Of a stretch of DNA of 64,000 bases, positions 1,318-17,482 are shown one piece after another. The first letter of the stretch is position 1, and each line of letters starts with the position of its first letter. Location of the stretch: positions 1-64,000 of the forward strand of contig JAHJLB010000050.1 of assembly GCA_018822105.1 (NCBI GenBank). Reading direction: 5' to 3'. The position numbers were made by a program, and so were the translations under genes. The notes below the pieces were generated by a model. That model saw only the letters and a program-made list of their open reading frames with translations, did no database searches and was not told the DNA's origin. Source of the stretch: Pseudomonadota bacterium (GTDB lineage Bacteria > Desulfobacterota > Desulfovibrionia > Desulfovibrionales > Desulfovibrionaceae).

Positions 1318-3042
1318 CTAGCCGGCCGCGCCGAACTGCATTTCGTAGAGGGTGCGGTAGATGTCGCAGCGCTCCAGGAGCTTGGCGTGCTTGCCCTGGT
1401 CCACGATGCGCCCGTTCTCCACGACCACGATGAGGTCGGCCGTAAGGATGGTGGACAGGCGGTGGGCGATGACCAGGCTGGTGCGGTGCTGCATGAGGTT
1501 CTCCAGGGCCAGCTGGACGATGCGCTCGCTCTCGGTGTCCAGCGCGCTGGTGGCCTCGTCCAGGATGAGCAGGGGCGGGTTCTTCATGATGGCCCGGGCG
1601 ATGGTCAGGCGCTGCTTCTGCCCGCCTGAGAGCTTGACCCCGCGCTCGCCCACCAGGGTGTCGTAGCCCTCGGGCAGCTCCAGGATGAAGTCGTGGGCGT
1701 AGGCGGCCTTGGCCGCGGCCTCCACCTCCTCCTGGCTGTAGCCGCCCACAGCGCCATAGGCGATGTTCTCGCGCACGCTGGCGTTGAACAGGAAGGCCTC
1801 CTGGCTCACCAACCCCATGCTGCGGCGCAGGCTCGTCAGGGTGTAGTCGGCCAGCGGCCGGCCGTTGAGCAGTATCCGGCCCCCCTGCGGATCGAAGAAG
1901 CGCGGCACCATGTTGGCCAGGGTGGTCTTGCCCGAGCCGCTTGAGCCCACGATGGCGATGCGCTCCCCGGCCTTCACCTGCAGGGAGACGCCGTCCAGGG
2001 CGGGACGGTTGGCCCCGCTGTAGCTGAAGGTCACGTCCTCGAAGGCGATGTCGCGGAAGGGGCCGGTGAACTCGACGCTGCCGCCGCGCTCGGTGATGCC
2101 GTCGGCCTTGTCCATGATCTCGAACACGCGCTCGGCCCCGGTGAGGGCCATCTGGATGTCGATGTTGGTGGCGTTCATGCGCTTGATGGGCTCGTAGAGC
2201 AGGGCCAGGGCGGTGAGGAAGGACAAGAGGGCGCCGGTGGTCAGGTCGCCCTCGATGACGCGGGAGCCGCCGTACCAGAGCACCAGCCCGGCGGCGAAGG
2301 AGCCCACGGTCTCCATGACCCGAGAGCTCTGCTCGCTGGCCAGGATCTGCTTGTTGTTGCTGGTGACGAGCTTGGCGTTCTCGTCCCGGAAGCGCGAGAT
2401 CTCCTCCTTCTCCTTGGCGAAGCCCTTGATGACCTTGATGCCGGAGAGGCCCTCCTGCAGGCGCACGCTGACGTCGGACACGTGGGACTGGGTGCGCCGC
2501 CCCAGTTTGCGCATGCGCTTGCTGTAGTAGATGAAGGGGTACAGGGCGGCGGGCAGCACCAAAGTGCCCCAGAAGGCCAGCTTCCAGTCCAGGTAGAACA
2601 CGTAGACGGCCAGGCCGATGACCGAAAAGACCTCGCGCGTGAACATGACCATGGAGGGCAGGCTGGCCCGGATGAGGCCCACGTCGTTCAGCACGCGGCT
2701 CATGAGCATGCCCACCTGGGATTCGTTGAAGTAGTCCATGGGCAGGCAGACGATCCTGGCATAGAGGTCGTTGCGCAGATCGTTGATGGCCAGCAGGCCC
2801 GAGGTGTTCATGTAGTAGTTCTGCAGAAAGCGGAACACGCCCTTGGCGGTCATGAGCACCACGATGCCCACGGTGACGAACTTGAGGGCCACGACGTCCT
2901 TGTTGATGAGCACGTCGTCCACGGCCTTCTTCACCAGCCAGGCCGAGGCCGCCGAACAGGGCGCCACCACGACCATGCCCAGGATGGCCACCGCCAGCCG
3001 GGCCTTGTAGCGCATGAAATAGGCCAGGCACCGCTTGAGCAT
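1318..3042 (-). CDS. msbA: MsbA-like lipid/polysaccharide ABC exporter
   Basis: A 574-residue half-transporter with membrane and ATPase domains fused. The N-terminal part (about residues 1-300) has the six-helix type I exporter fold. The ATPase part carries Walker [10 protein letters not shown] (366-374), signature LSGGQ (471-475), Walker B LLILDE (491-496) and the H-loop histidine near 527. It probably flips lipid A-core or a related glycolipid, which fits the heptosyltransferase directly downstream. The start is uncertain: ATG at 3042 has a poor ribosome site, and a TTG at 3084 preceded by a purine-rich stretch would add 14 residues. Substrate is inferred from family and context. Confidence 0.85.
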
Positions 3043-3317: not shown

Positions 3318-4385
3318 ATGACCAATCTCGCGGACACGCTCACCCTCGTCATCCCCACGCACTACCGCCACCACTACCTCTCGCGGGTGCTGACCTACTA
3401 CCAGGACTCCGGGCTCCGCCCCCTGGTCATCGACTCCACCAATCAGCCCTTCCCCGAAGGCGCACGCTTTCCGAACATGGACTACCGCCACTGCCCGGAC
3501 ATGCCCTTCCTGGCCAAGATCACCAGGCCCGTGCTGGACATCGCCACGCCCTACACCGTCTTCTGCGCCGACGACTCCTTCATCCTCCCGCGCGCGGCCG
3601 CGGCCTGCGTGGAGTTTCTGGAGGCCCACCCCGACCACCACGCCGCCCACGGCAGGCAGATCTCCGTGACCCGCGCCAACGGCCGGCTCGTGTACGAGCC
3701 CTGCTACACCCAGGACGCCAGCCTGCGCATCGACTCCGACGATCCGGCAGAGCGGCTCAGGCAGATCTTCCAGCCCTACAGCCCCACCTTCTACGCCGTG
3801 CACCGCACGGGCAGCGTGCAGGAGTTCGTGCGCACGGCCACGGGCCGCAGGATCAACGACGTCATGCTGGAATTGGTCAGCGCCATGACCGGGGCCATCG
3901 GCGGCAAGCACGCGGTGCTGCCCCTGCTCTACCATGTGACGGAGATCGTGCCGAGCATCCTGGACGCCAAGAAGCGCCGCCTGCCCGGGGCCGACGACAT
4001 CTGCGACAGGCCGGAGCACCGCGAACAGCTCGAGGACTTCGTGGCCGCCTTGAGCGAATGCTACGCCCGGCGCACGGGCAGCGCCCCGGAGGCCTCGCGC
4101 GCCGCCATCCTGGCCTCCATCGAAGCCTACCTGCTGACCCAGCGCGGCAAGCCGCGGCGGCCCTTCTGGAAAAAGCTGCCGCGCTACCTCATCAACTCCC
4201 TGGCCGGCCTGGGCTGGCAGAGCGGCGACTTCGGCTCCCTGGCCGAAACCCGCGCGTTCAAGGCCCGGCAACAGGGCCCGGACGCGGCCCTTCAGGACCT
4301 CATGGCCCTGTTCGACGAAACGGCCCGGACAGAGCTGGACTCCATCCGGGCCGTCATGGCCGCCTATTACGCAGGCAGGCCCTAG
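3318..4385 (+). CDS. Family-2-like glycosyltransferase
   Basis: A 355-residue soluble protein that opens with the GT-A strand TLVIPTHYR (about residues 9-17) and has an acidic CADDSF motif (residues 83-88) in the place of the metal/nucleotide-sugar DXD. This resembles the TIGR00180-type glycosyltransferases. It stands alone on the plus strand between minus-strand cell-surface genes and is divergent from the MsbA-like gene, with about 275 bases between the two start codons. The ATG at 3318 has no strong ribosome site, but the family strand begins right after it. Donor and acceptor are unknown. A 17-bp-stem hairpin follows the stop. Confidence 0.7.
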   Translation: MTNLADTLTLVIPTHYRHHYLSRVLTYYQDSGLRPLVIDSTNQPFPEGARFPNMDYRHCPDMPFLAKITRPVLDIATPYTVFCADDSFILPRAAAACVEFLEAHPDHHAAHGRQISVTRANGRLVYEPCYTQDASLRIDSDDPAERLRQIFQPYSPTFYAVHRTGSVQEFVRTATGRRINDVMLELVSAMTGAIGGKHAVLPLLYHVTEIVPSILDAKKRRLPGADDICDRPEHREQLEDFVAALSECYARRTGSAPEASRAAILASIEAYLLTQRGKPRRPFWKKLPRYLINSLAGLGWQSGDFGSLAETRAFKARQQGPDAALQDLMALFDETARTELDSIRAVMAAYYAGRP

Positions 4386-4547: not shown

Positions 4548-7082
4548 TCACAGCTTGCGCACCAGCCCCCGCGCCCACTGGCCGATGATCAGCCCCATGA
4601 GCGGGATGGTGGCCAGGGCGTAGGGCATGGACTCCGCCTCGGGCCCCCTGGCCTTGGGCACCACAAAGAGCACGAAGGCGAGCATCCAGGCCGAGGCCAT
4701 GACCAGGCTTGGGGCGAGGCAGCGCCACGCGCTGATCTCCAGCGGGCCGGGCGGGGGCGGCAAGAGCGCAGGGCCGGGCACGGCGCCTGAGGCCGGAACC
4801 GGCGGACGCCAGAGCGCGCAGAGCAACAGGAGCACCCCCGCGCCCGTGGCCAGGTGCAGCCACCAGATGAGCGGGCTGCCGAACCGGAGCTCCACGCAAA
4901 AGGGGCCGGCCCTGTCTATGCGCAGCCCCTGGAAGGCATGGTTGGCGCGGAACACCGGCGTGGCGACGCCGTCCACCCTGGCCTGCCAGCGCGGATCGAA
5001 ATTGTTGCTGACCACCAGCACGCAGGGCCCGGCGGCCACGCCCTCCATCCTCAGCACGTCGGGCCCCCAGGAGGTCAGGGAGACCCGCCCCGCATCCTGC
5101 CCTGGCGCAACAGCCGAAAATCCCTCCGGAACATCCTCGCGGGCCAGGAACGCCGTCCCGTTCAGCTCCTGGGCCGTGGCCGCGCCGAGGCTGCGCAGCA
5201 CCTCCTCGCGGGTGTCCATGACCCTCGGCAGGGCGAGACGGACCCGGGCCTGGGCCTCCTTCAGCGCGTAGATCCAAAGGGGCAGATCATGCAGGGAGCC
5301 AAGGCCCACGCTGGCCAGCCAGGGCCGCTCCTGGGCAAGCCCCGGGGAAAGCTCCGGGGGGCCGGCAAAGGGCTCCATGCCCTCGATGGGGCCAGCGGCA
5401 ACGACATGGGTCACGTTCATGGCCCGGAGCAGATTCCAGTTCAGGTCCGCTGCGCTGCGCGGACGGGCTGGCGTCAGCACGTAGGAGCGCTGGTCGTGGT
5501 CCTTCCTGGTCCGCGTCAGGTAGAGCTGGTGCCAAAGGGCGTCGAAGTCCGCGACGTCCTTGTCCGTCGGGAGCTGGGGCCGCACCGCCTCGCGGACGTA
5601 CTCCTTGAAATATTTGTTGAAGAGCGGCGACTTCCCGCCAACGGTGTCCAGGCCGCGGCTTTGGATGATGGCCGGATGCACATCCACGCAGGCCACGCGG
5701 AAGGGCGAGAGCTTGGCGGCGGCCGCCAGCCTGTCCAGGGCCGGGTGGCCGACAAAGCCCTTGGTGTAGGGGACAAAGAGCCCCGCCGTCATGTTGCGCT
5801 GGCGGGTCATCATGCCGAACCCCGCCAGGCAGGCCACGAGGGCGAACACGACCCAGGCCTGCCTGGGCTTCGGCAGGCCCACGCGGCCCCGCCGCAACAG
5901 CAGGATGGCGCAGACCAGCACCCCGAGCACAAGCACGTGGCCGATGACCTTGTGGGCCGCGCCGAGCAGGGGCAGGGCGAGCAGGGCCGGCGCCAGGTGC
6001 CAAGGGGCCAGCCGGGTCTTGTCCGCGCCGTATTCGTCGACAGCCAGGCCGGCGATGATGACGCTCACCGCTCCCGTGGCGGTGGTGAACATGAAGAGGT
6101 CCATCTTGAGCAGGAAGGAGCCGGCGAACAGGGCCTTGAGCTCGGAGCTGAAGGCCCCCGCGACCACGTGCATGGCCAGGTAGAACAAGAGGCCGATGCG
6201 GATGTCGCGCCGCCGCAGCAGGGGCGCCCCCAGGAGCACGCCCATGAGCAGGGGCTGGTCCGACATGCGCCCGAGAAACCAGCGCCCGAAGTCCAGCAGG
6301 GCCGGCAGCAGGCCGGCATAGGGGAAATCCCAGTCGCGCTGGGCAAAGGGGATGTAGAGGAACAGGCTGGTGATGGACGGCAGGAAGATGAGCACATAGC
6401 CCGTCCAGACCAGGAACACCCCCGCGATCTGGCGCTTGAAGTCCGGCAGGTGCCGGCCCAGGAACAGCACCAGGGCCAGGTGCAGGACGGGAAAATGGGG
6501 CAGGCTGAGCACCGGGAAGGACAGCAGGCCCACGAAGAGGATGAGCAGGGCGTTGCGCAGGCGCAGCCATCTCGGGCTGGCGTTGCGGAACATGTCCACG
6601 GTCCAGACGAAAACAGCAGGAAAGGCGTAGGACATGACCATGTGCACGTTGCCGCTCACCAGGGCCAGGGAGCTCAGGGCGGCGCAGACGAGGGCGGTCT
6701 GGCGCGAGCAGCGCGGCAGAAGCTGCAGGAACCGGTAGACTCCATAGCCCAGGAGGAACATCTGCCCGATGTTCCACACAAGGGCCAAGACCCAGATGGG
6801 CATGAGCGCGGAGAGAAACACGGCCGGGTTGTAGGGCGGGTGCTGCCCCACAAAGGACGGCACGCCGCCGGCATGGAAGGGGTACCAGCTGAAGGCCCCA
6901 TGCTGCGCCCAGAACTCGGCCATGTGCCTGAAGTGGGCGAAATGCACCTCGATGGCGTCGTAGAAGTCCACGACGGCATACGGACCAAGAAGGATCTTGT
7001 CGAAATAGCAGCCAACGGCGAGCAACAAGAGGGACAGGATGTCCCGGCGGTCATCCCGCCAAAATGGCAGCTGCATGCTCAT
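4548..7082 (-). CDS. YfhO-like polytopic membrane protein
   Basis: An 844-residue integral membrane protein with about a dozen hydrophobic segments in the first 420 residues, a large hydrophilic, probably periplasmic region (about 430-720) and further hydrophobic segments at the C-terminus. The layout and the N-terminal loop with WYPFHAGG and HPPYNP resemble YfhO-type membrane proteins related to GT-C glycosyltransferases that use lipid-linked sugars. Likely role: transfer of a sugar to a surface glycan, inferred from family and neighbours. TTG(7085)-ATG(7082)-AGC-ATG gives several starts; ATG 7082 is preferred behind a GAGG element. It is flanked on both sides by the same hairpin repeat, so it is probably a separate unit from the sugar operon upstream. 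Confidence 0.65.
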   Translation of the reverse strand: MSMQLPFWRDDRRDILSLLLLAVGCYFDKILLGPYAVVDFYDAIEVHFAHFRHMAEFWAQHGAFSWYPFHAGGVPSFVGQHPPYNPAVFLSALMPIWVLALVWNIGQMFLLGYGVYRFLQLLPRCSRQTALVCAALSSLALVSGNVHMVMSYAFPAVFVWTVDMFRNASPRWLRLRNALLILFVGLLSFPVLSLPHFPVLHLALVLFLGRHLPDFKRQIAGVFLVWTGYVLIFLPSITSLFLYIPFAQRDWDFPYAGLLPALLDFGRWFLGRMSDQPLLMGVLLGAPLLRRRDIRIGLLFYLAMHVVAGAFSSELKALFAGSFLLKMDLFMFTTATGAVSVIIAGLAVDEYGADKTRLAPWHLAPALLALPLLGAAHKVIGHVLVLGVLVCAILLLRRGRVGLPKPRQAWVVFALVACLAGFGMMTRQRNMTAGLFVPYTKGFVGHPALDRLAAAAKLSPFRVACVDVHPAIIQSRGLDTVGGKSPLFNKYFKEYVREAVRPQLPTDKDVADFDALWHQLYLTRTRKDHDQRSYVLTPARPRSAADLNWNLLRAMNVTHVVAAGPIEGMEPFAGPPELSPGLAQERPWLASVGLGSLHDLPLWIYALKEAQARVRLALPRVMDTREEVLRSLGAATAQELNGTAFLAREDVPEGFSAVAPGQDAGRVSLTSWGPDVLRMEGVAAGPCVLVVSNNFDPRWQARVDGVATPVFRANHAFQGLRIDRAGPFCVELRFGSPLIWWLHLATGAGVLLLLCALWRPPVPASGAVPGPALLPPPPGPLEISAWRCLAPSLVMASAWMLAFVLFVVPKARGPEAESMPYALATIPLMGLIIGQWARGLVRKL

Positions 7083-7355: not shown

Positions 7356-8288
7356 CTACTTCAGCCCGAACCCGGCCAGCACGGCTCCCGCGTCCACGCT
7401 GAAGGTCTCGGCGCCGGGCCTGTACCAGTCCTCGCTGTGCCCGCGCTTGACGAGCAGCGTCTTCACGCCCTGCTCCAGCGCCTCGGCGCGCAGGCCCTGG
7501 CCGGCGATGTTGGCGCTCTTGGAGTCGTCCAGGATCACCAGCCGGCCGGTTCTGCGGGCGTCCTCCAGGATGGGCGCGTAGTCCACGGGCATGGCCGCGG
7601 CCACGCCGAAGAGCGAGGCCGAAAGCCCCTGGCCCGCCAGCTCGTCCGCCAGCCCCTTGCCCTGGGGCAGGGTCAGGTTGCAGCAGGCCACGGTGAGGTC
7701 CGCGCCCCGGGCGTACTGGAAGATCTCGCCGTCGCGGTCCAGCAGGGGCTCGGCCCCGAAGTCCATGATCTCGGTGCCGAAGAGCCGCTGGGAGACCCCC
7801 ATGAGCCGGAAGCCGGGCCGGGCGAAGATGTTGCCGATGACCGAGTCCGCGTCCTGTTTGCAGGCGATGGTGTAGCCCGGAACACGGGCAAAGGAGCAGA
7901 AGTCGGCCAGGTTGTTCAGGCTGGACTGGATGCCCTCGAAGCCGGAGTCCACCACCGTGGAGACGATGGTGAAGCTGGCCCTGGGCGCGTGCTGGCGCAC
8001 GGCGTTGTAGGTGTTCACGATCTGGTCCAGGCCGAGCAGCAGAAAGTCCTGCTGCTTCATGAAGAAGGCCGAGGACACGCCGCCGAGCATCATGCCGAAG
8101 CCCGCGCCCACCAGCGTGTTCTCCACGTTGGGGGTGTTGAGCGCCCTGTGCCCCGGCGAACCGCCCAGCCCGCGCGAGAGCCCGCCCAGGCAGGAGCCCG
8201 CGGCGATGTTCTGGCCGAAGAAGACGAAGGGCTGGACCTTCTCGGCGGCGGCCTTGAAGGCCTGGTTCACATACTGCACGTATTTCAT
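7356..8288 (-). CDS. Thiamine-diphosphate E1 beta-like / transketolase C-terminal-like subunit
   Basis: A 310-residue protein resembling E1 beta chains of 2-oxoacid dehydrogenases: an early FFGQNI strand, NTPNVENTLVGAGFG with the beta-chain glutamate, then a KQQDFLLLGLDQI segment. It overlaps the E1 alpha-like gene by ATGA (ATG 8288, stop of alpha at 8285), a sign of translational coupling and complex formation. No lipoyl acyltransferase (E2) or E3 gene is nearby, and the pair closes a sugar-nucleotide operon. It may therefore pass a two-carbon acyl or ketol unit to a sugar instead of feeding CoA. That role is inference. Confidence 0.75.
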   Translation of the reverse strand: MKYVQYVNQAFKAAAEKVQPFVFFGQNIAAGSCLGGLSRGLGGSPGHRALNTPNVENTLVGAGFGMMLGGVSSAFFMKQQDFLLLGLDQIVNTYNAVRQHAPRASFTIVSTVVDSGFEGIQSSLNNLADFCSFARVPGYTIACKQDADSVIGNIFARPGFRLMGVSQRLFGTEIMDFGAEPLLDRDGEIFQYARGADLTVACCNLTLPQGKGLADELAGQGLSASLFGVAAAMPVDYAPILEDARRTGRLVILDDSKSANIAGQGLRAEALEQGVKTLLVKRGHSEDWYRPGAETFSVDAGAVLAGFGLK

Positions 8289-9205
8289 GCCCGCGCCTCC
8301 AGGGTGCCCGCGATCTCCGCCGCCAGCGCGTCCACCCGTGCTGGGCCGTGCACGCAGGCCAGCACGTGCACGGGGTCGTCGGCCTCGGCCCGCACGCAGG
8401 GCCCGTTGTCCAGGCACACCGAGGGCGTGCCCCCGGCGTGGTAGTTGATGTGCTTGCCGTCCGGAAACTCCGGGGTGGGCATGCGCCAGTCGCCCAGGGT
8501 GGAGAGCATGACCTCCACGATGACGGCGCGGCTGTCCGCCAGGGCGGCTTCGCGCGCGGTGGTGAGCTTTGCCAAGTAGGCCTCGGGGTCGTTGCCCGAG
8601 AGGCAGACGTAGTCCGCGCCCAGGGCAGCGGCCATCTGGTCCAGGCGGATGGGGCAGCGGCGCTCTTCGATGCGCGTGGCCAGCGACCAGCCGTTGTTCT
8701 CCACGATGATCATGGCCGGGAGCCGGTACGTGGCGTACATCTGCAGGCTCTCGTACAGCGTGCCCTCCTCCATGGCCCCGTCGCCGGTGACCACGATGGT
8801 CAGGCCCGTCTCGCCCTTGACCTTCTTGGCCAGGGCCAGGCCCGTGGCCACGGCCAGGTTGTTGCCCAGGATGCTTGAGGTATACGCGATGCCCGCGCCG
8901 GGGTTGGAGAGGTTCATGGAGCCCGCGCGGCCGCCGGCCAGGCCCGTGGGCATGAGGGCGAACTCGTCGCGCACCTGGGCGTACGTGGCCCCTCGGGCCA
9001 GGTTGTAGTGCAGGTTGCGGTGCGAGCAGGCCAGCTGGTCGCCCTCCTGCATCATGGCCGCCACGGCCACGGCGATGGACTCGTGCCCCAGGGCCAGGTG
9101 GATGGGCACCCGGAAGGCCTTGGCCTTGATGCCCTCGTTCAGCATGAGCATGGTCAGGCGCAGGCGCAGCACCTCGCGCGCCAGCCTTAGTACGGACTGT
9201 GCCAC
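8285..9205 (-). CDS. Thiamine-diphosphate E1 alpha-like subunit
   Basis: A 306-residue dehydrogenase E1 component alpha-like protein (PF00676-type). It shows the LALGHES segment (residues 37-43), RNLH (63-66) and a thiamine-diphosphate motif running from GDG (141-143) to NN (170-171) with LPAMIIVE before the asparagines. The start is GTG 9205, with GGGAGGA seven bases upstream; longer versions would run into the neighbouring epimerase frame. Together with the E1 beta-like gene it forms an orphan E1 heterodimer lacking E2 and E3. Related ThDP enzymes in surface-polysaccharide clusters make branched or chain-extended sugars, and I infer the same here. Confidence 0.78.
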   Translation of the reverse strand: MAQSVLRLAREVLRLRLTMLMLNEGIKAKAFRVPIHLALGHESIAVAVAAMMQEGDQLACSHRNLHYNLARGATYAQVRDEFALMPTGLAGGRAGSMNLSNPGAGIAYTSSILGNNLAVATGLALAKKVKGETGLTIVVTGDGAMEEGTLYESLQMYATYRLPAMIIVENNGWSLATRIEERRCPIRLDQMAAALGADYVCLSGNDPEAYLAKLTTAREAALADSRAVIVEVMLSTLGDWRMPTPEFPDGKHINYHAGGTPSVCLDNGPCVRAEADDPVHVLACVHGPARVDALAAEIAGTLEARA

Positions 9206-9231
9206 AGTGGTTCCTCCCGCAGCCCCGGCCC

Positions 9232-10125
9232 CTAGGCCAGAGGGATGTTCAGATGCGCCATGACGGACTTGAGGCCCGCCGTGAGGTCGATCTCCGGGGT
9301 GAAGCCCAAGAGCTCCTTGGCGCGCTGGTTGCTCACCAGGCGGATGCTCGGCTTGTCCGGATTGGATTCGGCCACCCTGGGGTTCTTGCCCGTGAGCCTC
9401 CTGCTCTCCTCGATGACGTCGCCCAGGCTGATGAAGCGGTCGCCCTGGATGTTGATGACGTGGAAGCCCTCGAGCCCCAGGGACAGCTTCACGGCCCGGG
9501 CGATGTCCTGGACATGCAGGAAGCGCCGCCCCGTGCGCAGGGAGCCCACGGTGACCTCGTCCTTGGTGGCCACGGAGTTCAGAAGCGACTCCACGGCCGA
9601 CCAGTTGGCCGGGCGCGGGCCGTAGATTATGCCGAAGCGCAGGATGGCCGTGGGACAGAAGCCGTGCTGCCACTGCTGGCGCAGGTTGACCTCGCTCACG
9701 TACTTGGAGAAGGCGTACTCGCTGGTCAATTTCGCGGCGTCGATGGGGTCGTCCTCGTGCTTCTCCACGCCCTCCGCAAAGGTGTCGTAGACCCATTCCG
9801 TGGAGGCGAAGACGAACTGCTTGACGCCTCTGGCCTTGGCCTGGTCCATGAGGTTGAGCGTACCCTGCACGTTGACGTCAAAGGTGCGGCAGGCGTTCAT
9901 GCGGCAGTCGGCATCGCGCGAGAGCGCCGCCAGATGCACGATGGCGTCCGCGCCCTCGGGGATGAGGTCGGCGATCGCCGGGTCGCGGATGTCGGCCTGG
10001 TGGTAGGCCGGGTCCGCGGGCTTGATGGCGTCCACGCCGAAGGTTTCAAACCCCGCGGCCTTGCACTGGGCCAGGAACTCCTTGCCGATGAAGCTCTCCA
10101 CGCCGGTGAGGAATATCTTTTTCAT
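9232..10125 (-). CDS. NAD-dependent epimerase/dehydratase (extended SDR)
   Basis: A 297-residue extended short-chain dehydrogenase that would act on a nucleotide sugar. It has a nucleotide-binding loop TGVESFIG (residues 7-14), which departs from the usual TGGAGFIG, then LAALS, a catalytic serine in FASTEW and YAFSK as the YxxxK pair. The ATG at 10125 has an AGGAGCACC ribosome site. It sits between the CmcI-like methyltransferase and the E1 alpha-like gene, 26 bases upstream of the latter. Which carbon is epimerised or dehydrated cannot be deduced. Confidence 0.8.
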   Translation of the reverse strand: MKKIFLTGVESFIGKEFLAQCKAAGFETFGVDAIKPADPAYHQADIRDPAIADLIPEGADAIVHLAALSRDADCRMNACRTFDVNVQGTLNLMDQAKARGVKQFVFASTEWVYDTFAEGVEKHEDDPIDAAKLTSEYAFSKYVSEVNLRQQWQHGFCPTAILRFGIIYGPRPANWSAVESLLNSVATKDEVTVGSLRTGRRFLHVQDIARAVKLSLGLEGFHVINIQGDRFISLGDVIEESRRLTGKNPRVAESNPDKPSIRLVSNQRAKELLGFTPEIDLTAGLKSVMAHLNIPLA

Positions 10126-10146
10126 GTCCGGTGCTCCTGGCGGCTG

Positions 10147-10881
10147 CTAGCGGCCGGTCTTGCGGCGCAGGTAGGCCTTGGGGTTTGAGGTCACGAAAAG
10201 CCGGGTGAAGTGCTCGTCGATCTCGAACTCGTCCTGGCCCTTGGCCGAGGCCATGAAGTCCTCGATGGCCGCCAGGGGGTTGTCGTCCTTCCACTCCTGC
10301 TTGCCGTCGGGCATGTCCCAGACAAAGGCCTGGGCCCCGTCCATGACCACCAGGTAGCTGCCGGGGCTGACGAACTCGCGGTAGAGCTCGATCTCCCTCG
10401 CCACGTGCTCCTTGGAGTGGTTGGAGTCCAGCAGCACCACCACCTTGTCGCCGGGGCGGATGAAGCTCTTGACCTGACGGATGGTGTCGGCCTCGATGGA
10501 GCTGCCCTCCACCATGCGCACGCGGTGGCCCATGGGGTGGTTCTGCACGGCGATGCGGTTGTAGGGGCGGATCTCCACGTCCACGCCGACGACAATGCCC
10601 TTGCCCATGAGCTCCATGAGCGAGCCGTAGAACAGGGCCGAGCCGCCGTGGGCGAAGCCGCATTCCACGATGACGTCGGGGCGCACCTTCCAGATGAGCT
10701 CCTCCATCATCATGATGTCTTCGGGGAACTGGATGATGGGCACGCCCATCCAGGTGCAGTTGTGGGTCAGCTTGTACTGCGCGTACAGCTTGACCCACAG
10801 GGAGCTGACCATCTCCAGGCCCTCCTGGGAAAACACGTCCACGGTCCTGGTCTGGCCATGCGCTTCAAGGGTGAGTTTCAT
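10147..10881 (-). CDS. CmcI/RfbH-like sugar O-methyltransferase (cephalosporin hydroxylase family)
   Basis: A 244-residue protein of the CmcI family (PF04989), a Rossmann-type SAM methyltransferase group that includes rhamnosyl O-methyltransferases. The VIVECGFAHGGSA segment is the SAM-binding loop, and a later VVVLLDSNHSKEHV carries the metal-site D and H residues typical of the family. Start ATG 10881 follows GGAGCACAC. Its place in a sugar operon supports O-methylation of a sugar or glycan residue; hydroxylation is unlikely. Confidence 0.78.
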   Translation of the reverse strand: MKLTLEAHGQTRTVDVFSQEGLEMVSSLWVKLYAQYKLTHNCTWMGVPIIQFPEDIMMMEELIWKVRPDVIVECGFAHGGSALFYGSLMELMGKGIVVGVDVEIRPYNRIAVQNHPMGHRVRMVEGSSIEADTIRQVKSFIRPGDKVVVLLDSNHSKEHVAREIELYREFVSPGSYLVVMDGAQAFVWDMPDGKQEWKDDNPLAAIEDFMASAKGQDEFEIDEHFTRLFVTSNPKAYLRRKTGR

Positions 10882-10929
10882 GTGTGCTCCATATATGTGT
10901 CGAAAAGATTCGTCGCTGGTTCCGGTTGG

Positions 10930-11910
10930 CTAATCGCTGACGTAGATGATCTTGCTGCCCTGGGGCTCGAAGCGGAAGGGGGTCTCCTTCAGGTCGGCCA
11001 GGGCCTGGCGCACCCGGTCCTGGTCCGCCTCCTCGGCGTAGAGCATGAGGAACCCGCCGCCCCCGGCGCCCAGGATCTTGCCGCCCACGGCACCGGCTCC
11101 GCGCGCCAGCTCGTAGAGTTCGTCGATGCGCGGGCTGGTGACGCCGGGCGCCAGCTTGCGCTTGCCCATCCAGCCCTGGTGCAGAAGCTCGCCCACGGCG
11201 TGCAGGTCATTCTTCACCAGCATCTCGCGCATGGTCTCGGAGAGCGCCACCATCTGGTCCAGGTACCCGGCGTTGTCCCGGATGCCGTCCTGCTGGTCGG
11301 CCAGGATGGTGGAGGAATGGCGCTCCACCCCGGTGTAGAACATGAGCAGCTTGGCGTTCAGCGCCTCGCGCGTGGCCCGCCGCCAGATGATGGGGTCCAC
11401 GAAGACGCTCTCGTCCTTGTTGAAGCGGTAGCGGTTGAAGCCGCCATAGGCCGCGGCGTACTGGTCCTGCTTGCCCATGGGGTGCCCCAGGCGGTCGATC
11501 TCGATCTCGCAGGCCTCGCGGGCCAGGCGCTCGGCCGAGACGTGCTTGCCCACATAGGCGTAGAGCGCGTTCAGCACGCCCACGGCCAGGCTGCTGGACG
11601 AGCCCAGGCCGATGCCCGCGGTGCCCAGGGGGATGTCGCCCATGTAGACGATGTCCACGCCGCGCTCCACGCCCACGATCTTCATGGCCTCGCGGATGAT
11701 GTTGTGCTCCACCTTGTCCACGTGGTCCACCATCTCCGTCTTGGAGTAGGACACCCGGATCAGGTCGTCGAACTTCCGGTTCACGGTGATGAAGATGTAG
11801 CGGTCGATGGCCGTGCTGAGCACCTGGCCGTAGCCCCGGCCGTAGTACACGGCGAGGTCCGAGCCCCCGCCGAGGAAGCTCACGCGCATGGGCGTGCGGG
11901 AAATGATCAT
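10930..11910 (-). CDS. hddA: GHMP kinase, D-glycero-D-manno-heptose 7-phosphate kinase-like
   Basis: A 326-residue GHMP-superfamily kinase. The opening IISRTPMRVSFLGGGSD is typical of HddA-type heptose kinases, and GLGSSSS (residues 101-107) is the phosphate-binding motif 2. A C-terminal GAGGGGFL motif completes the fold. HddA phosphorylates C-1 of heptose 7-phosphate on the way to a GDP-activated heptose; the fused nucleotidyltransferase/phosphatase of the same operon (15680-16897) would do the next two steps. Start ATG 11910 overlaps the stop of the upstream epimerase (ATGA). A GmhA isomerase is not in the window. Confidence 0.82.
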   Translation of the reverse strand: MIISRTPMRVSFLGGGSDLAVYYGRGYGQVLSTAIDRYIFITVNRKFDDLIRVSYSKTEMVDHVDKVEHNIIREAMKIVGVERGVDIVYMGDIPLGTAGIGLGSSSSLAVGVLNALYAYVGKHVSAERLAREACEIEIDRLGHPMGKQDQYAAAYGGFNRYRFNKDESVFVDPIIWRRATREALNAKLLMFYTGVERHSSTILADQQDGIRDNAGYLDQMVALSETMREMLVKNDLHAVGELLHQGWMGKRKLAPGVTSPRIDELYELARGAGAVGGKILGAGGGGFLMLYAEEADQDRVRQALADLKETPFRFEPQGSKIIYVSD

Positions 11911-12845
11911 GTCCTCTCACCTTCCGGCCGCGCGGTCGCGCAGCGCGTCATGTCGGAAAACCGCCGCGTCATGTCGGCAATGCCTTCGCCCAGGCCGATC
12001 CGCGCCACAAAGCCGGCGTCCGCCTGCATGCGGGCCGTGTCGGCCCAGAAATCCTCCGTGGCCTCGCCGCCGGCCGCCTGGGCGTCCAGATCCCCCAGCA
12101 GCTCCTCCCGGCCCAGGGCCGCATACACCATGCGCGCCACCTCCGCCACCCCCGTCGGGCTGCCCGACCCGACATTGTAGACCCCGGCCCGGGGGCTCTT
12201 CTCCAGGGCCAGGGCAAAGGCCAGGGCCGCGTCGTCCACGTGGAGGAAGTCGTTGCGGTTGGCCGGGCAGCGCAAGGCCGGGGCCGTGCCGGCCAGGGCC
12301 TGGGCCGCGAGCGCGGGCACGAGCGAGGCCGGGCGCTGGCCGAGGCCGTACACGAAAAAGAGCCGCAGCCAGGTGAAGGCCAGCCCCTGCTCCCGGGCCT
12401 GGGCGCGGCCCTCGGCGTGCAGGCGGTTCTTGGCCGCCGGAAAGGGCTGGTCGTGCCTGAGGGGCGCGTCCTCGGACAACCGCCCCTGGCGCGAGGCATA
12501 CTCCCAGCAGCTGCCGGAGGCAACGATGTGCCGCGCCCCGGCCCTGGCGGCCAGGCCGAAGGCCGCCAGCCCCAGCTCCACGTTGCGCTGGCTGACAAAC
12601 TCGGAATAGTCCGGCAGGCCCTGCCAGGCCAGGTGCAGCAAGGCCTCGGGCGCAAAGGCCTCAAGCCCGTCCAGGAGTCGCTCCGGCTGGGCCAGGTCGC
12701 CCGGCAGAAACGCCGCGCCCGGCAGCGCCGCACGCGCCGCGTCCGCATCGCGCGCCAGGCCCAGCACCTGGTGCCCGCGCTGGCAGAGCAGGCGCGCGGC
12801 GGCCTGGCCGATGAAGCCCGTGGCCCCGGTGACGAAGATGCGCAT
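11907..12845 (-). CDS. NAD-dependent epimerase/dehydratase
   Basis: A 312-residue extended SDR with the canonical TGATGFIG loop (residues 6-13), LHLAWQG, and NRLHAEG in the region where YxxxK is expected. The usual catalytic tyrosine is not obvious: the text reads PFPAAKNRLHAEG, so a reductase- or reduced-function variant is possible. The serine segment SGSCWEY is present. The start is ATG 12845; the longer open frame upstream is antisense noise over the cupin gene. Its stop overlaps the kinase start. Probable role: keto-sugar reduction or epimerisation in the operon's pathway. Confidence 0.75.
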   Translation of the reverse strand: MRIFVTGATGFIGQAAARLLCQRGHQVLGLARDADAARAALPGAAFLPGDLAQPERLLDGLEAFAPEALLHLAWQGLPDYSEFVSQRNVELGLAAFGLAARAGARHIVASGSCWEYASRQGRLSEDAPLRHDQPFPAAKNRLHAEGRAQAREQGLAFTWLRLFFVYGLGQRPASLVPALAAQALAGTAPALRCPANRNDFLHVDDAALAFALALEKSPRAGVYNVGSGSPTGVAEVARMVYAALGREELLGDLDAQAAGGEATEDFWADTARMQADAGFVARIGLGEGIADMTRRFSDMTRCATARPEGERT

Positions 12846-12862
12846 CACGACACCCGCATGGG

Positions 12863-13357
12863 CTAGAAGTCCCTTCTGGCCCAGTCGTAGGGGATGCCCC
12901 CGGCATGGGGATCGATGCGCAGGTACTTGAGGCCCGGGTCGTGGGCGTGGGAGGCCACGTTGCAGATCAGGGCGAAGGGTTCGGTCAGGCCCTTGGAGCC
13001 GTTGGCGATGCCGGGCGGGATGTGCACCAGGCAGTAGTTGTCGTCGCCGAAGAAGATCTCCTCGATGACGCCCTTGGTGGGGGAGCCCTCGCGCATGTCG
13101 CAGAGCACCAGCTTGATCATGCCCGTGAGGCAGAGGTAGTTCAGCTCCAGGGTCTCGTGCACGTGCCAGCCGTTGACCACGCCGCAATACAGCTTCTTGA
13201 AGTAGACCTCGCCGAAGGGCGAAAGGGCGTTGTCCGCGCGCACGCCATGCATGATGACCCCGCGCTCGTCCGGGATGCGCTTGAGCGGGCGGATGAGGAC
13301 ACCGTGGATCTTGCCGGGGGTGCATCCGGCCGGAAGACCGGCCTTTGTCTCAGACAT
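12863..13357 (-). CDS. dTDP-4-dehydrorhamnose 3,5-epimerase-like cupin
   Basis: A 164-residue RmlC-like cupin. HGVLIRPLKRIPDERG near the N-terminus and NGWHVHETLELNY match the RmlC fold, where the H-x-H region lies in the sugar pocket; IPPGIANG matches the conserved IPPG(FI)AHG strand with N in place of H. That change and the missing canonical catalytic tyrosine region suggest a relative, not RmlC itself. ATG 13357 overlaps the end of the C-methyltransferase by 8 bases. It likely epimerises a 4-keto sugar nucleotide made in this operon. Confidence 0.75.
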   Translation of the reverse strand: MSETKAGLPAGCTPGKIHGVLIRPLKRIPDERGVIMHGVRADNALSPFGEVYFKKLYCGVVNGWHVHETLELNYLCLTGMIKLVLCDMREGSPTKGVIEEIFFGDDNYCLVHIPPGIANGSKGLTEPFALICNVASHAHDPGLKYLRIDPHAGGIPYDWARRDF

Positions 13358-14606
13358 TGCTCGCCTCCTCCATGCCCATGGCCCTGGGCGGGTGCGGCAG
13401 GGGCATGATGATCCGTCCGGTGAAGCCGAAGCGCTGGCGCAGTATGCCCACGATCTCGGCAAAGAAGTTCCAGGCCAGGATGACCACGGTGTCGGGCTTG
13501 GACGCCATCACCAGCTCCGGCGCCTGGATGGGGATGTGCGTACTGGGCGAAAACAGGTCGTGCTTCATGGGGTTCTGGTCGGCGATGGCGGCGATGAGCC
13601 CGGGGCCGACGCTGCAGAAGTTGAGCATGGTGGAGCTGCGGGCCGAGGCGCCGTAGCCCACGACCCTGCGCCCGGCCCGGGCCTCGGCCTCGAGCAGGGC
13701 CAGCAGGGCTCCGCGGTGCTCGAAGGAGACCTGGGCGAAGCGCTGCCAGGCCGCCAGGTCGTTGGCCCCGCTCTGCTCCTCCGCAGCCTCGAAGGCCTTG
13801 AGCCTGGCGCTCTTTTCCGATTCGAGGGGGGGGCTGGTGCGCGAGAAGAGCACCAAGGAGCCGCCGCTGATGGGGCTCTCCTCCAGGTCGAAGGGGAAAA
13901 TGCCGTGGGCGTTCAGAAGCCGCGTCAGGCTCTTCAAAGTGAAGTAGCAGAGGTGCTCGTGGTAGATGGAGTCGTAGTGCAGCTCCTCCAGGATGGTCTT
14001 GGCGTAGTGGAACTCGATGGCCACCAGGCCGCCTGCTCCCGCCGCCACCTTGAGGCCCGCCACGAAGTCATTGGTGCCGGCCACGTGGGGCAGCACGTTG
14101 CGCGCGAACACGGCGCGCGCCGGGCCGCGCCCGGCCACCACGTCCTGCGCCAGCTCCGCGCCGAAGAAGCCGCAGCGGGTGGGCACGCCGTCGGCCTTGG
14201 CCATGTCCACGATGTTGGCCGCCGGGTCCACGCCCAGGCAGTCCACCCCGCGCCTCAAAAAGGGCTTGAGGAAGGTGCCGTCGTTGCTGGCGATCTCCAG
14301 CACGTAGCCGCCCTGCTCCGGCCCCAGGCGGGCCAGCAGCCGCTCGCAGAAGTCCTCGGCATAGGCCCGGGCCGTGCTGGAGGTGGAGGTGACCCAGACA
14401 TAGTGCGAGAACAGCTCGCCGGGGTCCGCCGTGTGGTCCAGCTGCACCAGGCTGCACTCGCGGCAGAAGGACAGGGAGAGCGGGTACACGGGGTCGCTGA
14501 CGGAGGCGTCGCGCACCAGGGCGTTGGCCAGGGGCTGGCCGCCCAGGTCGAAGAACTGCTCCACCTGGGCCGAGCCGCACACGCGGCAGTTGGCGATGCC
14601 CGCCAT
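13350..14606 (-). CDS. Sugar C-methyltransferase (TylC3/NovU-like)
   Basis: A 418-residue SAM-dependent methyltransferase of the three-domain C-methyltransferase type. An N-terminal zinc-binding CRVCG...CRECS part is followed by the SAM domain with VLEIASNDGTFL, and then by YDSIYHEHLCYFT, the His-Glu-His motif of enzymes that methylate C-3 of 4-keto sugars. A C-terminal domain with VVGYGASARSSTML completes it. The length is normal for the family. The product would be a C-methylated (branched) sugar nucleotide, consistent with the flanking epimerases. It lies 2 bases downstream of the epimerase gene at 14609. Confidence 0.85.
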   Translation of the reverse strand: MAGIANCRVCGSAQVEQFFDLGGQPLANALVRDASVSDPVYPLSLSFCRECSLVQLDHTADPGELFSHYVWVTSTSSTARAYAEDFCERLLARLGPEQGGYVLEIASNDGTFLKPFLRRGVDCLGVDPAANIVDMAKADGVPTRCGFFGAELAQDVVAGRGPARAVFARNVLPHVAGTNDFVAGLKVAAGAGGLVAIEFHYAKTILEELHYDSIYHEHLCYFTLKSLTRLLNAHGIFPFDLEESPISGGSLVLFSRTSPPLESEKSARLKAFEAAEEQSGANDLAAWQRFAQVSFEHRGALLALLEAEARAGRRVVGYGASARSSTMLNFCSVGPGLIAAIADQNPMKHDLFSPSTHIPIQAPELVMASKPDTVVILAWNFFAEIVGILRQRFGFTGRIIMPLPHPPRAMGMEEASNV

Positions 14607-14608
14607 GC

Positions 14609-15664
14609 CTAGGCCCTCCAGCGCAGGTTGTCGTCCAGCTTCCCGGCCTGCATGAGGGTCTTGAGCCGGGCCAGGCGGATGACCTTGTCACCCCGGAAGT
14701 CGGCCTCGGTGAGGCCCACGCGGGTGAAGAACTCCACCAGCTCCACGCCGCCCTTGGGCAGGTCCCAGGCGGGCTTGTAGTGGTCGCCCAGCCTGGACAA
14801 GATCTTGTCGAAGCACACGCGGTAGGTGCGCGAATCCGGCCCGTGCTCCCCGGTGAAGACAAGCCCGCTGCCGGGCACGGCCTGCTGCGCGGCCTCGGCG
14901 ATCTGGCGCACGGTGTAGTTGCCGTTTTTGACGCCGATGTTGAAGGCCTGCTTGTTCAGCACCTCGCGCTCGGCCGTGAGGCCGGAGATGAAGGCCTGGC
15001 AGACGTCCTTGATGTGCACGATGGGCCGCCAGGGCGTGCCGTCGCTCTTGATTTCGATGGTGCCGGTGGTGAAGGCGCAGGCCACGAGGTTGTTGTAGAC
15101 GATGTCGCAGCGCAGGCGCGGGCTGGCGCCAAACACGGTGGACGGGCGGAAGTGCGTGGGCAGGAAGTCCGGCCCGGCCAGGTTGTTCAGGTCGCACTCG
15201 GCCTGCCACTTGGTCTTGGCGTAGGCCGTCACCGGGTTCTTCTCGGAATTGTCCTCCTCGACCTCTTTCGTCACGTCGGCCACGCCGTACATGCTCTGGG
15301 AGGAGGCGTAGATGAAGCGCCTGACCCCGGCCTTCTTGGCCATCTCGGCCACGCGCATGGTGCCCAGGTAGTTGATCTGGTGCGTCATCTCCGGGGCCAG
15401 CTCCCCCAGGGGGTCGTTGGACAGGCCCGCCAGGTGGATCACCGCGTCCACGCCCTCGAAGTCCGAGGCCTCGATGTCGCGCATGTCCTTCCTGATCTGC
15501 TTGGTCACGCGGGGGTCGAAGGGCTCAAGCTGGCAGTGGGAGTCGAAGTACTCGGTGTCGAAGCCCACCACGGTGTAGCCCCGGCGGGCCAGCTCGGGCG
15601 TGAGCACGCAGCCGATGTAGCCCTGGTTGCCCGTGACGAGGACTGTCTTGATGCTTTCTTTCAT
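14609..15664 (-). CDS. NAD-dependent epimerase/dehydratase
   Basis: A 351-residue extended SDR opening with TVLVTGNQGYIG, containing ASSQSMYG for the catalytic serine and AYAKTKWQAE for YxxxK. A C-terminal extension includes HYKPAWDLPKGG. ATG 15664 follows AAAGGAT. It resembles sugar-nucleotide epimerases of heptose and 6-deoxy-heptose pathways. It lies second in the operon, directly after the nucleotidyltransferase/phosphatase fusion, so it probably takes the activated sugar made there. Confidence 0.83.
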   Translation of the reverse strand: MKESIKTVLVTGNQGYIGCVLTPELARRGYTVVGFDTEYFDSHCQLEPFDPRVTKQIRKDMRDIEASDFEGVDAVIHLAGLSNDPLGELAPEMTHQINYLGTMRVAEMAKKAGVRRFIYASSQSMYGVADVTKEVEEDNSEKNPVTAYAKTKWQAECDLNNLAGPDFLPTHFRPSTVFGASPRLRCDIVYNNLVACAFTTGTIEIKSDGTPWRPIVHIKDVCQAFISGLTAEREVLNKQAFNIGVKNGNYTVRQIAEAAQQAVPGSGLVFTGEHGPDSRTYRVCFDKILSRLGDHYKPAWDLPKGGVELVEFFTRVGLTEADFRGDKVIRLARLKTLMQAGKLDDNLRWRA

Positions 15665-15679
15665 GGAAAAATCCTTTGG

Positions 15680-16897
15680 TTATGGCGCGTTCGCCGGCAG
15701 CAGGTCCTCGCGGACCACATCCAGCAGGCGGCGCGTCCCGGTAACGAGGATGGTCGGGCAGCCCGCGGCCTGGCCCGCCTGCATGTCGCGCTCGTCATCG
15801 CCGATGAAGGGCGTACGCGTCAGGTCCAGGCTGTGGTCGCGCTGGGCGGCAAAGAGCATGCCGGGCTTGGGCTTGCGGCACCCGCAGCCTTCGTCCCAGC
15901 CGTGCGGACAGACGTAGATCTGGTCCAGGCCAGCGCCCGCGGCGGCCAGATCGGCCCGCATCCTGGCGTGCACGGCCTCCAGGCCGGCGGCGGTCATGAC
16001 GCCCCGGGCGATGCCCGCCTGGTTGGAGACCACGAGCACCAGCCAGCCGGCGTCGCAGAGCAGCCGCACGGCCTCGATGGCGCCCTCCGCCCAGAGGAAT
16101 TCCTCGGGTTTGGTCACGTAGCAGGCCCGTGGAGGCTTTATATTGAGCACCCCGTCACGGTCAAGCACCACCGCCGGGCGGCGCGCCAGGAAGGCCTCGG
16201 TGAGGGGCAGGCGGCGGAAGTCGCCCACGGAATAGTAGCGGTGCCGCGAGCAGAAGGCCCCCAGTCGGCCCTGGGCCACCAGGGTCGGATACACGGCGCG
16301 CTCGAAGTTCACGTCCTCCTCGGGGATGAGGTCCAGCACCTCGCGCTTGAGCAGGAAGTAGCCGATGTCCACCCCCTTGAGGTCCGGGGTGGCGCGGGAC
16401 TTGTCGTACACGGCCACCAGGCCGTCCGCCACGCGCAGGTTGTCCCTGGTCCAGCCGTCCTCGTTTTCGTAGACCACCACCTGGGCCGGGGCGCCGCTGG
16501 CGCGCCAGGCGGCCTCCAGGGCCGCGAAGTCCATGGGCCAGTAGTTGTCGCAATACAGCAGCAGGAACTCCGGCTCGATCAGGTCCTTGGCCAGGCGCAG
16601 GCGCGTGCCGGTGTCGTTGTCCACGTGGGTGACGGAGTAGGAGATGGAGACGCCGAAGCGCGAGCCGTCGCCGAAGTGCTCCATGACGGACTCGGGCAGG
16701 TAGCCCAGAAGCAGCAGCACGCGCTCGAAGCCCTGCTCGCGCACCTGCTCGATCAAGTACTCCAGGAAGGGCCGGCCGTGGAAGGGGATCATGGGCTTGG
16801 GCGTGGCGGCGGTGAGGGGCAGCAGCCTGGTGCCGCGCCCGCCCGCCAGGATCACCGCCTGCCGGGGCCGGTCGTGGTGCTGGGATTGTGTGTTCAT
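15680..16897 (-). CDS. Fused heptose-1-phosphate nucleotidyltransferase and heptose bisphosphate phosphatase
   Basis: A 405-residue bifunctional protein. Residues 1-235 are a sugar-phosphate nucleotidyltransferase with GGRGTRLLPLT (19-29) and PKPMI (33-37), HddC-like. Residues 241-405 are a HAD-IIIA phosphatase of GmhB type: DRDGVLN (246-252), a zinc loop with C330, H332, C338 and C340, and GDDERD (366-371). GmhB removes the 7-phosphate of heptose 1,7-bisphosphate and HddC then activates the 1-phosphate, so the fusion joins consecutive steps after HddA. It is the first gene of the sugar operon. The nucleotide used (GDP, CDP, other) is not clear from sequence. Confidence 0.82.
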   Translation of the reverse strand: MNTQSQHHDRPRQAVILAGGRGTRLLPLTAATPKPMIPFHGRPFLEYLIEQVREQGFERVLLLLGYLPESVMEHFGDGSRFGVSISYSVTHVDNDTGTRLRLAKDLIEPEFLLLYCDNYWPMDFAALEAAWRASGAPAQVVVYENEDGWTRDNLRVADGLVAVYDKSRATPDLKGVDIGYFLLKREVLDLIPEEDVNFERAVYPTLVAQGRLGAFCSRHRYYSVGDFRRLPLTEAFLARRPAVVLDRDGVLNIKPPRACYVTKPEEFLWAEGAIEAVRLLCDAGWLVLVVSNQAGIARGVMTAAGLEAVHARMRADLAAAGAGLDQIYVCPHGWDEGCGCRKPKPGMLFAAQRDHSLDLTRTPFIGDDERDMQAGQAAGCPTILVTGTRRLLDVVREDLLPANAP

Positions 16898-16921: not shown

Positions 16922-17467
16922 CTATTCCTGGTCGCGGCGCTTCAGGGGCGCCAGCACCGGCCGCACATGCTCCATGACCTTCCTGTGGGCGGCCTCGTAC
17001 TCCGGCGTGGCCAGGGCCAGGGCCTCCCGGCGCGTCACCAGGTGCATGGCCCCGCAGGGGCACATCTCCACGCAGGCCGGGGCCATGCCCACGCTGCGGC
17101 GGCGCTGGCACAGGTCGCACTTGGCCACGGCGTCCTCCAGCCCGGTGCAGAAGATGCCGCCAAAGGGGCAGGCCAGGATGCAGCTCTTGGTCTCGCACCC
17201 GGCGCAGAGCACGGGGTTCAAGAGCACCGCGCCGTCCGCGCCCTTCTGCAGCGCCCCGCGCGGGCAGGCCTTGATGCAGGCCGCGGCTTCGCAGTGCCGG
17301 CAGTACACCGGGGCCATGATGCCGCCCACGGTGCGCGTCATGTTGATCCTGGCCTGGCCGTGGATGAAGCGGCAGGCGGACTCGCAGGACTCGCAGCCGA
17401 TGCAGCGGGAATAGTCGATGAACAGGATGGTTTCGTCAACGTTCGTCATCGTCTCGTCGGGTGCCAT
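16922..17467 (-). CDS. Four-cluster [4Fe-4S] ferredoxin, electron-transfer subunit
   Basis: A 181-residue HycB/CooF-like ferredoxin with four cysteine motifs: CIGCESCESAC, CRHCEAAACIKACP, CAGCETKSCILACP and a late CDLCQ...CVEMCPCGAM. It has no signal sequence, so it is cytoplasmic. ATG 17467 follows GGGAGGGTTC. It sits 15 bases downstream of a GltD-like flavoprotein, and the two probably form one electron-transfer unit, for example between NAD(P)H and a ferredoxin-linked enzyme. The catalytic partner is not in the window. Confidence 0.82.
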   Translation of the reverse strand: MAPDETMTNVDETILFIDYSRCIGCESCESACRFIHGQARINMTRTVGGIMAPVYCRHCEAAACIKACPRGALQKGADGAVLLNPVLCAGCETKSCILACPFGGIFCTGLEDAVAKCDLCQRRRSVGMAPACVEMCPCGAMHLVTRREALALATPEYEAAHRKVMEHVRPVLAPLKRRDQE

Positions 17468-17482
17468 GAACCCTCCCGCGCC

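Follow-up and report, generated by a model that had tools for sequence, protein, structure and literature searches.

The locus described here raises the question of what a two-subunit E1 enzyme of the 2-oxoacid dehydrogenase type, with thiamine diphosphate (ThDP) as cofactor, might do in an operon otherwise composed of heptose-activation and sugar-tailoring genes. The operon occupies 16897-7356 on the minus strand of a 64,000-nucleotide stretch of contig JAHJLB010000050.1 (the window), from a Pseudomonadota bacterium assembly, GCA_018822105.1, assigned to the Desulfovibrionaceae. We consider it fairly probable that this ten-gene cassette makes a branched, methylated guanosine diphosphate (GDP)-heptose for a surface glycan, and that the E1 pair adds a pyruvate-derived two-carbon (C2) unit to GDP-4-keto-heptose. 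The glycan is probably lipopolysaccharide (LPS), because a heptosyltransferase-family gene and an MsbA-like exporter lie alongside. Gene content, conserved order, absence of E2, the E1 fold, gains and losses of residues and a recurring linkage to heptose genes, all computed directly, are the observations on which the argument is built.

An E1 pair in a conserved, probably heptose-making cassette

The ten genes overlap their neighbours by 4-8 base pairs (bp) or lie no more than 48 bp from them. Read 5' to 3', they encode an HddC/GmhB-like fusion, a 351-amino-acid (aa) extended short-chain dehydrogenase/reductase (SDR), a C-methyltransferase, an RmlC-like cupin, a 312-aa SDR, an HddA-like kinase, a CmcI-like methyltransferase, a 297-aa SDR, and the E1 alpha and beta subunits. 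Starts were refined for E1 alpha (9205, a GTG preceded by GGAGG), E1 beta (8288) and the cupin (13357). A sequence-only reading of the window had named this set (HddA-like kinase, HddC-GmhB fusion, three SDRs, cupin, two methyltransferases and the E1 pair), and each gene was found on the minus strand where that reading had placed it. It had also proposed a search for the same combination in other loci, and this was successful: the same ten genes occur in identical order in G034, a genome from another genus of the family, with identities from first to last gene of 68, 75, 63, 76, 54, 73, 74, 54, 60 and 59%. Because all ten recur in the same order, the gene set is a real unit and not a chance neighbourhood. 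The cassette is rare. A profile of this type of E1 beta, run on 348 genomes of the order, identified it in two (the source genome and G034), and among 395 genomes of the phylum the source genome scored 640 bits and four others 58-61 bits. Searching genome contigs with E1 alpha returned just two distant E1 loci, the viral contigs searched for E1 gave no match, and E1-like matches in the phage search were partial only.

Both subunits have the 2-oxoacid dehydrogenase E1 fold by sequence and fold searches. E1 beta had no Pfam match and weak NCBIfam matches (2.4e-7); its AlphaFold model (predicted local distance difference test, pLDDT, 82) matches E1 beta structures such as 1um9_B, and the E1 alpha model (pLDDT 75) matches human E1 alpha, 1ni4_A (values in Table 1). 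Residues were counted over 80 aligned alpha rows and 77 aligned beta rows, three E1 beta rows shorter than 250 aa having been left out of the beta tree and the counts. In two loops where local alignment is of low confidence and model pLDDT falls below 50 in parts, 78 of 80 alpha rows have an alpha-loop His and 75 of 77 beta rows the His of a beta QHSQ motif, and the only exceptions at both are this operon and G034. The operon E1 beta has Ser in place of the QHSQ His, and its residues 114-129 contain no His at all. Residues for ThDP binding and catalysis are kept, this operon and G034 included (GDG Asp, 79/80; second Asn of NN, 80/80; beta Glu, 77/77), as is the alpha VHL/IHL His in these two. 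We take the aligned alpha-loop and QHSQ positions to be His291-alpha and His146-beta' of 1OLS and 1OLX, and the titles of those PDB entries name these two residues in reductive acylation. On this alignment, both His tied to reductive acylation appear to be lost from the operon pair, with the ThDP residues and catalytic Glu retained.

No match to the E2 family PF00198 was found in the source genome, which is 99.98% complete, and E3 was not searched for; the same PF00198 search gave matches in 10 of 14 control genomes. The earlier claim of an E1 pair lacking both partners is thereby extended to the whole genome as far as E2 is concerned. A pyruvate-dehydrogenase-type complex was rejected, given the missing E2 and the loss of both acylation His. 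Also rejected was a YerE-type single-chain enzyme resembling acetolactate synthase, since Pfam assigns E1_dh to one chain and the beta subunit is a separate one.

Heptose-type enzymes and E1 pairs elsewhere

The kinase, nucleotidyltransferase and phosphatase domain content of GDP-heptose activation is present by Pfam. HddA, HddC and GmhB were the best or among the best NCBIfam matches, at 152.8, 67.4 and 163.7 bits against equivalog cut-offs of 600, 300 and 178, and because the scores are under these cut-offs the names are to be read as family-level labels. Elsewhere in the source genome a GmhA-like gene scores 196.3 bits (E 5.5e-58), just under its cut-off of 209.45. For the first SDR the top solved structures are 6VO6 and 6VO8, followed at 4.3e-20 by the next structure, a margin of 38 bits; 6VO6 is, we presume, Cj1427, the GDP-heptose C4-dehydrogenase of Campylobacter jejuni. 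The stretch TVFG-x-SPR-x-R-x-D-x3-N is common to this SDR and its orthologues in the type B loci described below. The first SDR is thus a probable GDP-heptose C4-dehydrogenase-like enzyme that would supply the keto acceptor. A Thr-Asp-Glu triad marks 4,6-dehydratases, and a true 4,6-dehydratase was rejected as a member of the cassette, the SDR motifs being without this triad.

Among the tailoring enzymes, the C-methyltransferase resembles TylC3 and TcaB9 in its three-domain architecture (Methyltransf_13, methyltransferase and Methyltransf_14 all present) and in its top structural match, the D-mycarose 3-C-methyltransferase 4RV9. Known acceptors of TylC3/TcaB9 enzymes are deoxythymidine diphosphate (dTDP)-deoxyhexoses, whereas the acceptor proposed for the operon is a heptose. 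The cupin matches 3EJK best and GDP-4-keto-heptose epimerases weakly (8DCL, 0.011), and the top solved structure for the last SDR, 6X3B, is a GDP-6-deoxy-D-mannose reductase. In the middle SDR (11907-12845; in G034, L028 15290-16177) both species have Phe at the YxxxK position of the catalytic Tyr (PFPAAK), which is unusual for a redox SDR.

Cj1427 reoxidizes its bound reduced nicotinamide adenine dinucleotide with alpha-ketoglutarate, yielding L-2-hydroxyglutarate (PMC10680097). On plasmid pDMC1 of Solidesulfovibrio magneticus RS-1 a gene annotated as L-2-hydroxyglutarate oxidase (L150 22386-23588) lies about 8 kb downstream of E1 genes, and in G019 a relative (46%; L037 15642-16805) adjoins a type B cluster, as if such oxidases near clusters of E1 and C4-dehydrogenase genes were recycling the by-product of the dehydrogenase. 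The source genome has a homologue (49%, 1.4e-108) on another contig, outside the operon, which may be ordinary housekeeping.

E1 pairs were also found beside heptose genes in two other architectures. Type B, detected in 7 of 14 congeners searched and in G019 and G263, comprises a C4-dehydrogenase, a nucleotidyltransferase (fused to a GmhB-like domain in most), an HddA-like kinase, E1 alpha, E1 beta, a further SDR, a DegT aminotransferase, a B12-radical SAM protein and a GT2 protein, not all of them at every locus. Its C4-dehydrogenase matches 6VO6 end to end (2.3e-141). On pDMC1 (NC_012797.1) the kinase, E1 alpha, E1 beta and C4-dehydrogenase are 69, 64, 74 and 74% identical to those of type B, and the C4-dehydrogenase matches 6VO6 at 5.1e-139. 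Type B and pDMC1 share HddC, HddA, E1 alpha, E1 beta, the C4-dehydrogenase and a further SDR with the operon, but they have the canonical E1 His, and the aminotransferase and B12-radical SAM protein replace the methyltransferases and cupin. Type C (seven surveyed loci) includes a GmhA-like SIS protein, a CTP-transferase/PfkB fusion, a second CTP-transferase protein, E1 alpha and E1 beta, again not all per locus; most loci have radical SAM/SPASM or GT2 proteins, and four of the seven carry an SDR 34-39% identical to the first SDR of the operon. Kinase/nucleotidyltransferase fusions at L044-L046, L096-L098 and L109 have the CTP-transferase ahead of PfkB, opposite to the order in E. coli HldE, mostly with SIS genes nearby. 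Because related clusters are also carried by plasmids of Azospirillum oryzae (NZ_CP054615.1) and A. ramasamyi (NZ_CP029835.1), the linkage of E1 and heptose genes reaches another phylum.

Linkage was then counted in 80 E1 loci, a non-random set composed of the operon locus, 19 of the 20 loci from one search (all but the short L025) and 60 regions taken down the ranking of a second search, with some skipped; that ranking had matches in 139 genomes, not all listed, and loci were picked by similarity to type A (this cassette) and type B. The heptose and E2 labels are bit thresholds in tblastn with queries from the operon locus, L033, L045, L046 and L049, so that divergent genes are missed, and many contigs are short. 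Within these bounds 29 loci had E2, 18 had heptose genes and none had both (Fisher p = 1.4e-4, relatedness ignored). The 18 comprise two loci of type A, nine of type B and seven of type C, and a C4-dehydrogenase-like SDR is present in 15 of them; the remaining 33 loci divide into 8 with SPASM genes, 8 with DegT genes and 17 with neither. In the E1 alpha tree a branch with 100/100 support splits 37 rows (18 heptose, 8 SPASM, 8 DegT, 3 with none of these labels) from 43 (29 E2, 14 none). The E2 group is weakly supported in the E1 beta tree (94/22).

Several other E1 settings were encountered. An order termed type D (PF02397 sugar-phosphate transferase, E1 alpha, E1 beta, DegT; L135 8485-12279 and L120 7716-11611) is found repeatedly in the phylum's polysaccharide loci and could represent another branching system based on an E1 pair. 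At L087-L092, L100 and L134 a radical SAM/SPASM gene directly precedes the E1 pair, mostly followed by GT2 and B12-radical SAM genes, with no recognised heptose genes. Of the E1 loci on Streptomyces plasmids, L152 is surrounded by antibiotic-type genes and has none annotated for sugars, L149 is unannotated, and at L048 an E2-like match adjoins the E1 pair.

Gene coordinates and flanking genes

Coordinates of the cassette and of the flanking genes are collected in Table 1. The large membrane protein next to the cassette has a relative (51-54%) adjoining the type B cluster of G001 (L030 14882-17119). Directly upstream of the operon on the same strand, 16922-18607 holds ferredoxin-like and NADPH-oxidoreductase-like genes, named from sequence alone; they were rejected as operon members, having no relative in the G034 stretch searched.

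Table 1. Genes of the cassette and its flanks, in window coordinates, with the matches that support each assignment.
Feature	Position	Strand	Support
HddC-like nucleotidyltransferase fused to GmhB-like HAD phosphatase, 405 aa	15680..16897	-	PF00483 1.5e-20; GmhB model PRK08942 3.1e-48; HddC model 1.4e-18; below equivalog cut-offs
First extended SDR, probable GDP-heptose C4-dehydrogenase (Cj1427-like)	14609..15664	-	6VO6/6VO8 1e-31
TylC3/TcaB9-type sugar 3-C-methyltransferase	13350..14606	-	PF08421, PF13489, PF08484; 4RV9 3.1e-69
RmlC-like cupin, probable C3/C5-epimerase of 4-keto sugar	12863..13357	-	PF00908 4.7e-9; 3EJK 1.1e-18
Middle extended SDR	11907..12845	-	PF01370 5.6e-34
GHMP kinase, HddA-like heptose-7-phosphate kinase	10930..11910	-	PF00288, PF08544; HddA best NCBIfam match
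RMNT/CmcI-family methyltransferase, probable sugar O-methyltransferase	10147..10881	-	PF04989 1.8e-65; 74% identity to G034 copy
Last extended SDR, probable ketoreductase, directly upstream of E1 pair	9232..10125	-	PF01370 5.7e-32; 6X3B 1.3e-15
E1 alpha (ThDP-binding subunit), divergent	8285..9205	-	PF00676 2.7e-30; model's top match 1ni4_A 5.4e-13
E1 beta, divergent	7356..8288	-	1um9_B phmmer 1.3e-13, Foldseek 1.2e-15
Large membrane protein adjoining cassette, outside conserved ten; possible glycan-transfer function	4548..7082	-	weak DUF6044 1.7e-5
Possible glycosyltransferase flanking cassette	3318..4385	+	no Pfam match; 45.7% relative flanks G034 cassette
MsbA-like ABC exporter flanking cassette	1318..3042	-	PF00664, PF00005; 60.7% relative flanks G034 cassette
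GT9 heptosyltransferase-family protein near cassette	181..1296	-	PF01075 1.5e-13; 60.6% relative near G034 cassette

The proposed branching reaction and its alternatives

A route through the cassette could begin with the GmhA-like enzyme encoded elsewhere, which would convert sedoheptulose-7-phosphate to heptose-7-phosphate. The HddA-like kinase would phosphorylate C1, the GmhB/HddC fusion would remove the C7 phosphate and transfer the nucleotidyl group, and the Cj1427-like SDR would oxidize C4. Epimerization by the cupin and 3-C-methylation next to the ketone by the TylC3-like enzyme may follow. E1 alpha/beta would then decarboxylate pyruvate and add the resulting C2 unit, as a ThDP-bound carbanion, to the ketone of the sugar, an SDR would reduce the acetyl branch, and the CmcI-like enzyme would carry out O-methylation. 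Substrates, step order, the branched carbon, the donor, the final glycan, and product and activity are all parts of this scheme that we infer. That the pair would act on a GDP-4-keto-heptose already methylated at C3 is suggested because the cassette and types B and C fit the logic of the alphaKADH2 systems: a maker of a C4 ketone, an E1 pair and an enzyme to process the branch, here an SDR and in type B DegT.

The alphaKADH2 E1 pairs add a pyruvate-derived C2 unit to keto sugars of antibiotics, as demonstrated in vitro for KbDH-alpha/beta; branching is at C3 or C4, and the branch is then reduced, methylated, oxidized or transaminated (PMC12247030). In paulomycin biosynthesis, Plm8/Plm9 join a C2 chain to each of two kinds of deoxyhexose (PMC4802897). 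Like these pairs (aldgamycin, kosinostatin, kibdelomycin KbDH-alpha/beta, AviB1/AviB2 of avilamycin, and Pau11/Pau12, which are Plm8/Plm9), the operon combines a stand-alone ThDP E1 pair with a predicted nucleotide-sugar route to a keto sugar, and reductases or aminotransferases to process the C2 branch (PMC12247030, PMC4425429). The alphaKADH2 pairs differ in acting on deoxyhexoses or pentoses of secondary metabolites, whereas the operon involves a heptose, a surface-glycan locus and a pair missing two active-site His. The C2 branch of yersiniose in Gram-negative LPS is credited to YerE (PMC4753412). YerE-type flavoproteins (yersiniose A, O-antigens) likewise use pyruvate to branch a keto sugar of Gram-negative LPS at C4 with a C2 unit (PMC4753412, PMC12247030), but they are single-chain enzymes of the acetolactate-synthase type (PMC10338323) and the operon encodes an E1 heterodimer. 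The C. jejuni GDP-heptose pathway (GmhA, HddA, GmhB, HddC, Cj1427, Cj1430, Cj1428) shares a kinase, phosphatase, nucleotidyltransferase, C4-dehydrogenase, cupin epimerase and SDR reductases with the operon; its differences are that no C-methyltransferase or E1 pair is described in the parts of PMC10680097 considered, and that HddC and GmhB are fused in the operon. A search of open-licence literature turned up no paper that connects E1 pairs with GDP-heptose. The sequence-only reading had recognised no described pathway with this exact set of genes, and that can now be put more precisely: the E1-pair enzyme type has a precedent, and what is new is the heptose setting and the altered active site. 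Its suggestion of an activated, C-methylated, possibly two-carbon-branched heptose is strengthened by the absence of E2, the C4-dehydrogenase-like SDR, three E1/heptose architectures and published branching by E1 pairs (PMC12247030), the product itself being deduced.

Several points weigh against this interpretation. The operon pair is likened to alphaKADH2 by fold, ThDP motif, absence of E2 and keto-sugar context, and the branching chemistry is derived from computation. In the E1 beta tree the operon pair sits on a very long branch, apart from the other heptose-linked pairs, and its nearest rows by path are E2-linked. Types B, C and D keep both His, also without E2 neighbours, so that branching does not require these residues to be lost, and the loss might point to a different reaction or donor. 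The kinase and nucleotidyltransferase score far below equivalog cut-offs and GmhA slightly under its cut-off, so the sugar phosphate may be a different one. The match of the first SDR to 6VO6 is moderate, and the identity of 6VO6 with Cj1427 is presumed. Finally, if branching consumes the ketone, the two further SDRs are not fully explained.

An alternative explanation could be that the operon makes an ordinary-length 3-C-methylated, O-methylated GDP-heptose and that the E1 pair is a co-transcribed 2-oxoacid decarboxylase or carboligase whose small-molecule substrate has no connection with it. The other eight genes would suffice for a modified heptose, steps like those of the Campylobacter heptoses need no E1 (PMC10680097), and E1 beta is highly diverged, with its very long branch; we nonetheless regard this as unlikely, as the second genus retains both E1 subunits at 58-60% identity within its copy of the conserved cassette, and E1 pairs are tied to heptose genes in two further architectures. 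The pair might instead act early, as a split enzyme resembling transketolase or DXS, forming an unusual ketose phosphate of seven or more carbons (for example from pyruvate and a pentose phosphate) as the starting material for the kinase and nucleotidyltransferase. This would be in keeping with the position of the type B E1 genes directly after the kinase gene, with the appearance of split transketolase and DXS lower in the beta fold-search list, and with the sub-cut-off scores of those two enzymes. We think it quite improbable, however, in that GmhA-like SIS genes in several E1/heptose clusters and in the source genome indicate an ordinary supply of heptose-7-phosphate, the ketone-making SDR accompanies most heptose-linked loci (the 15 of 18 above), and sequence and fold are those of E1, not transketolase.

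It is very unlikely that the pair has lost catalysis, through degeneration or by taking on a structural role, as the loss of two active-site His, a shortened E1 alpha C-terminus and low-confidence model loops could suggest: the GDG and NN residues for ThDP, the alpha His and the beta Glu are intact in both species, and both frames are open in both genomes. Hardly any probability attaches to a genuine E1 of a 2-oxoacid dehydrogenase complex with an E2 unrecognised or encoded elsewhere; the E1 fold and ThDP residues would be expected of it, but the source genome has no PF00198 match, the His that the 1OLS/1OLX titles link to reductive acylation are missing, and the sugar-gene setting is conserved in another genus.

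Taking C2 branching of a heptose as the favoured account, a bolder version may be put forward tentatively, and we would rate it somewhat less likely than not to hold in full: the operon pair could be the founder of a separate catalytic subclass without both lipoyl-acylation His, making a C2-branched, 3-C-methylated GDP-heptose with a ten-carbon skeleton (seven, plus the methyl, plus two) for LPS. Sulfate reducers and Azospirillum would then have several E1-pair systems that branch heptoses in surface-glycan loci, this pair among them; in the cited papers such a role is known only from antibiotic sugars. Branching by E1 pairs has been described for antibiotics, and branched sugars of LPS have been credited to YerE-like enzymes (PMC12247030, PMC4753412). 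If the proposal is true, the recurring linkage of E1, C4-dehydrogenase and heptose-activation genes in Gram-negative glycan loci would extend this branching chemistry to heptoses and would predict a new class of high-carbon surface sugars. It would also aid annotation of stand-alone "pyruvate dehydrogenase" genes in glycan loci, and would offer new carboligases that make tertiary alcohols.

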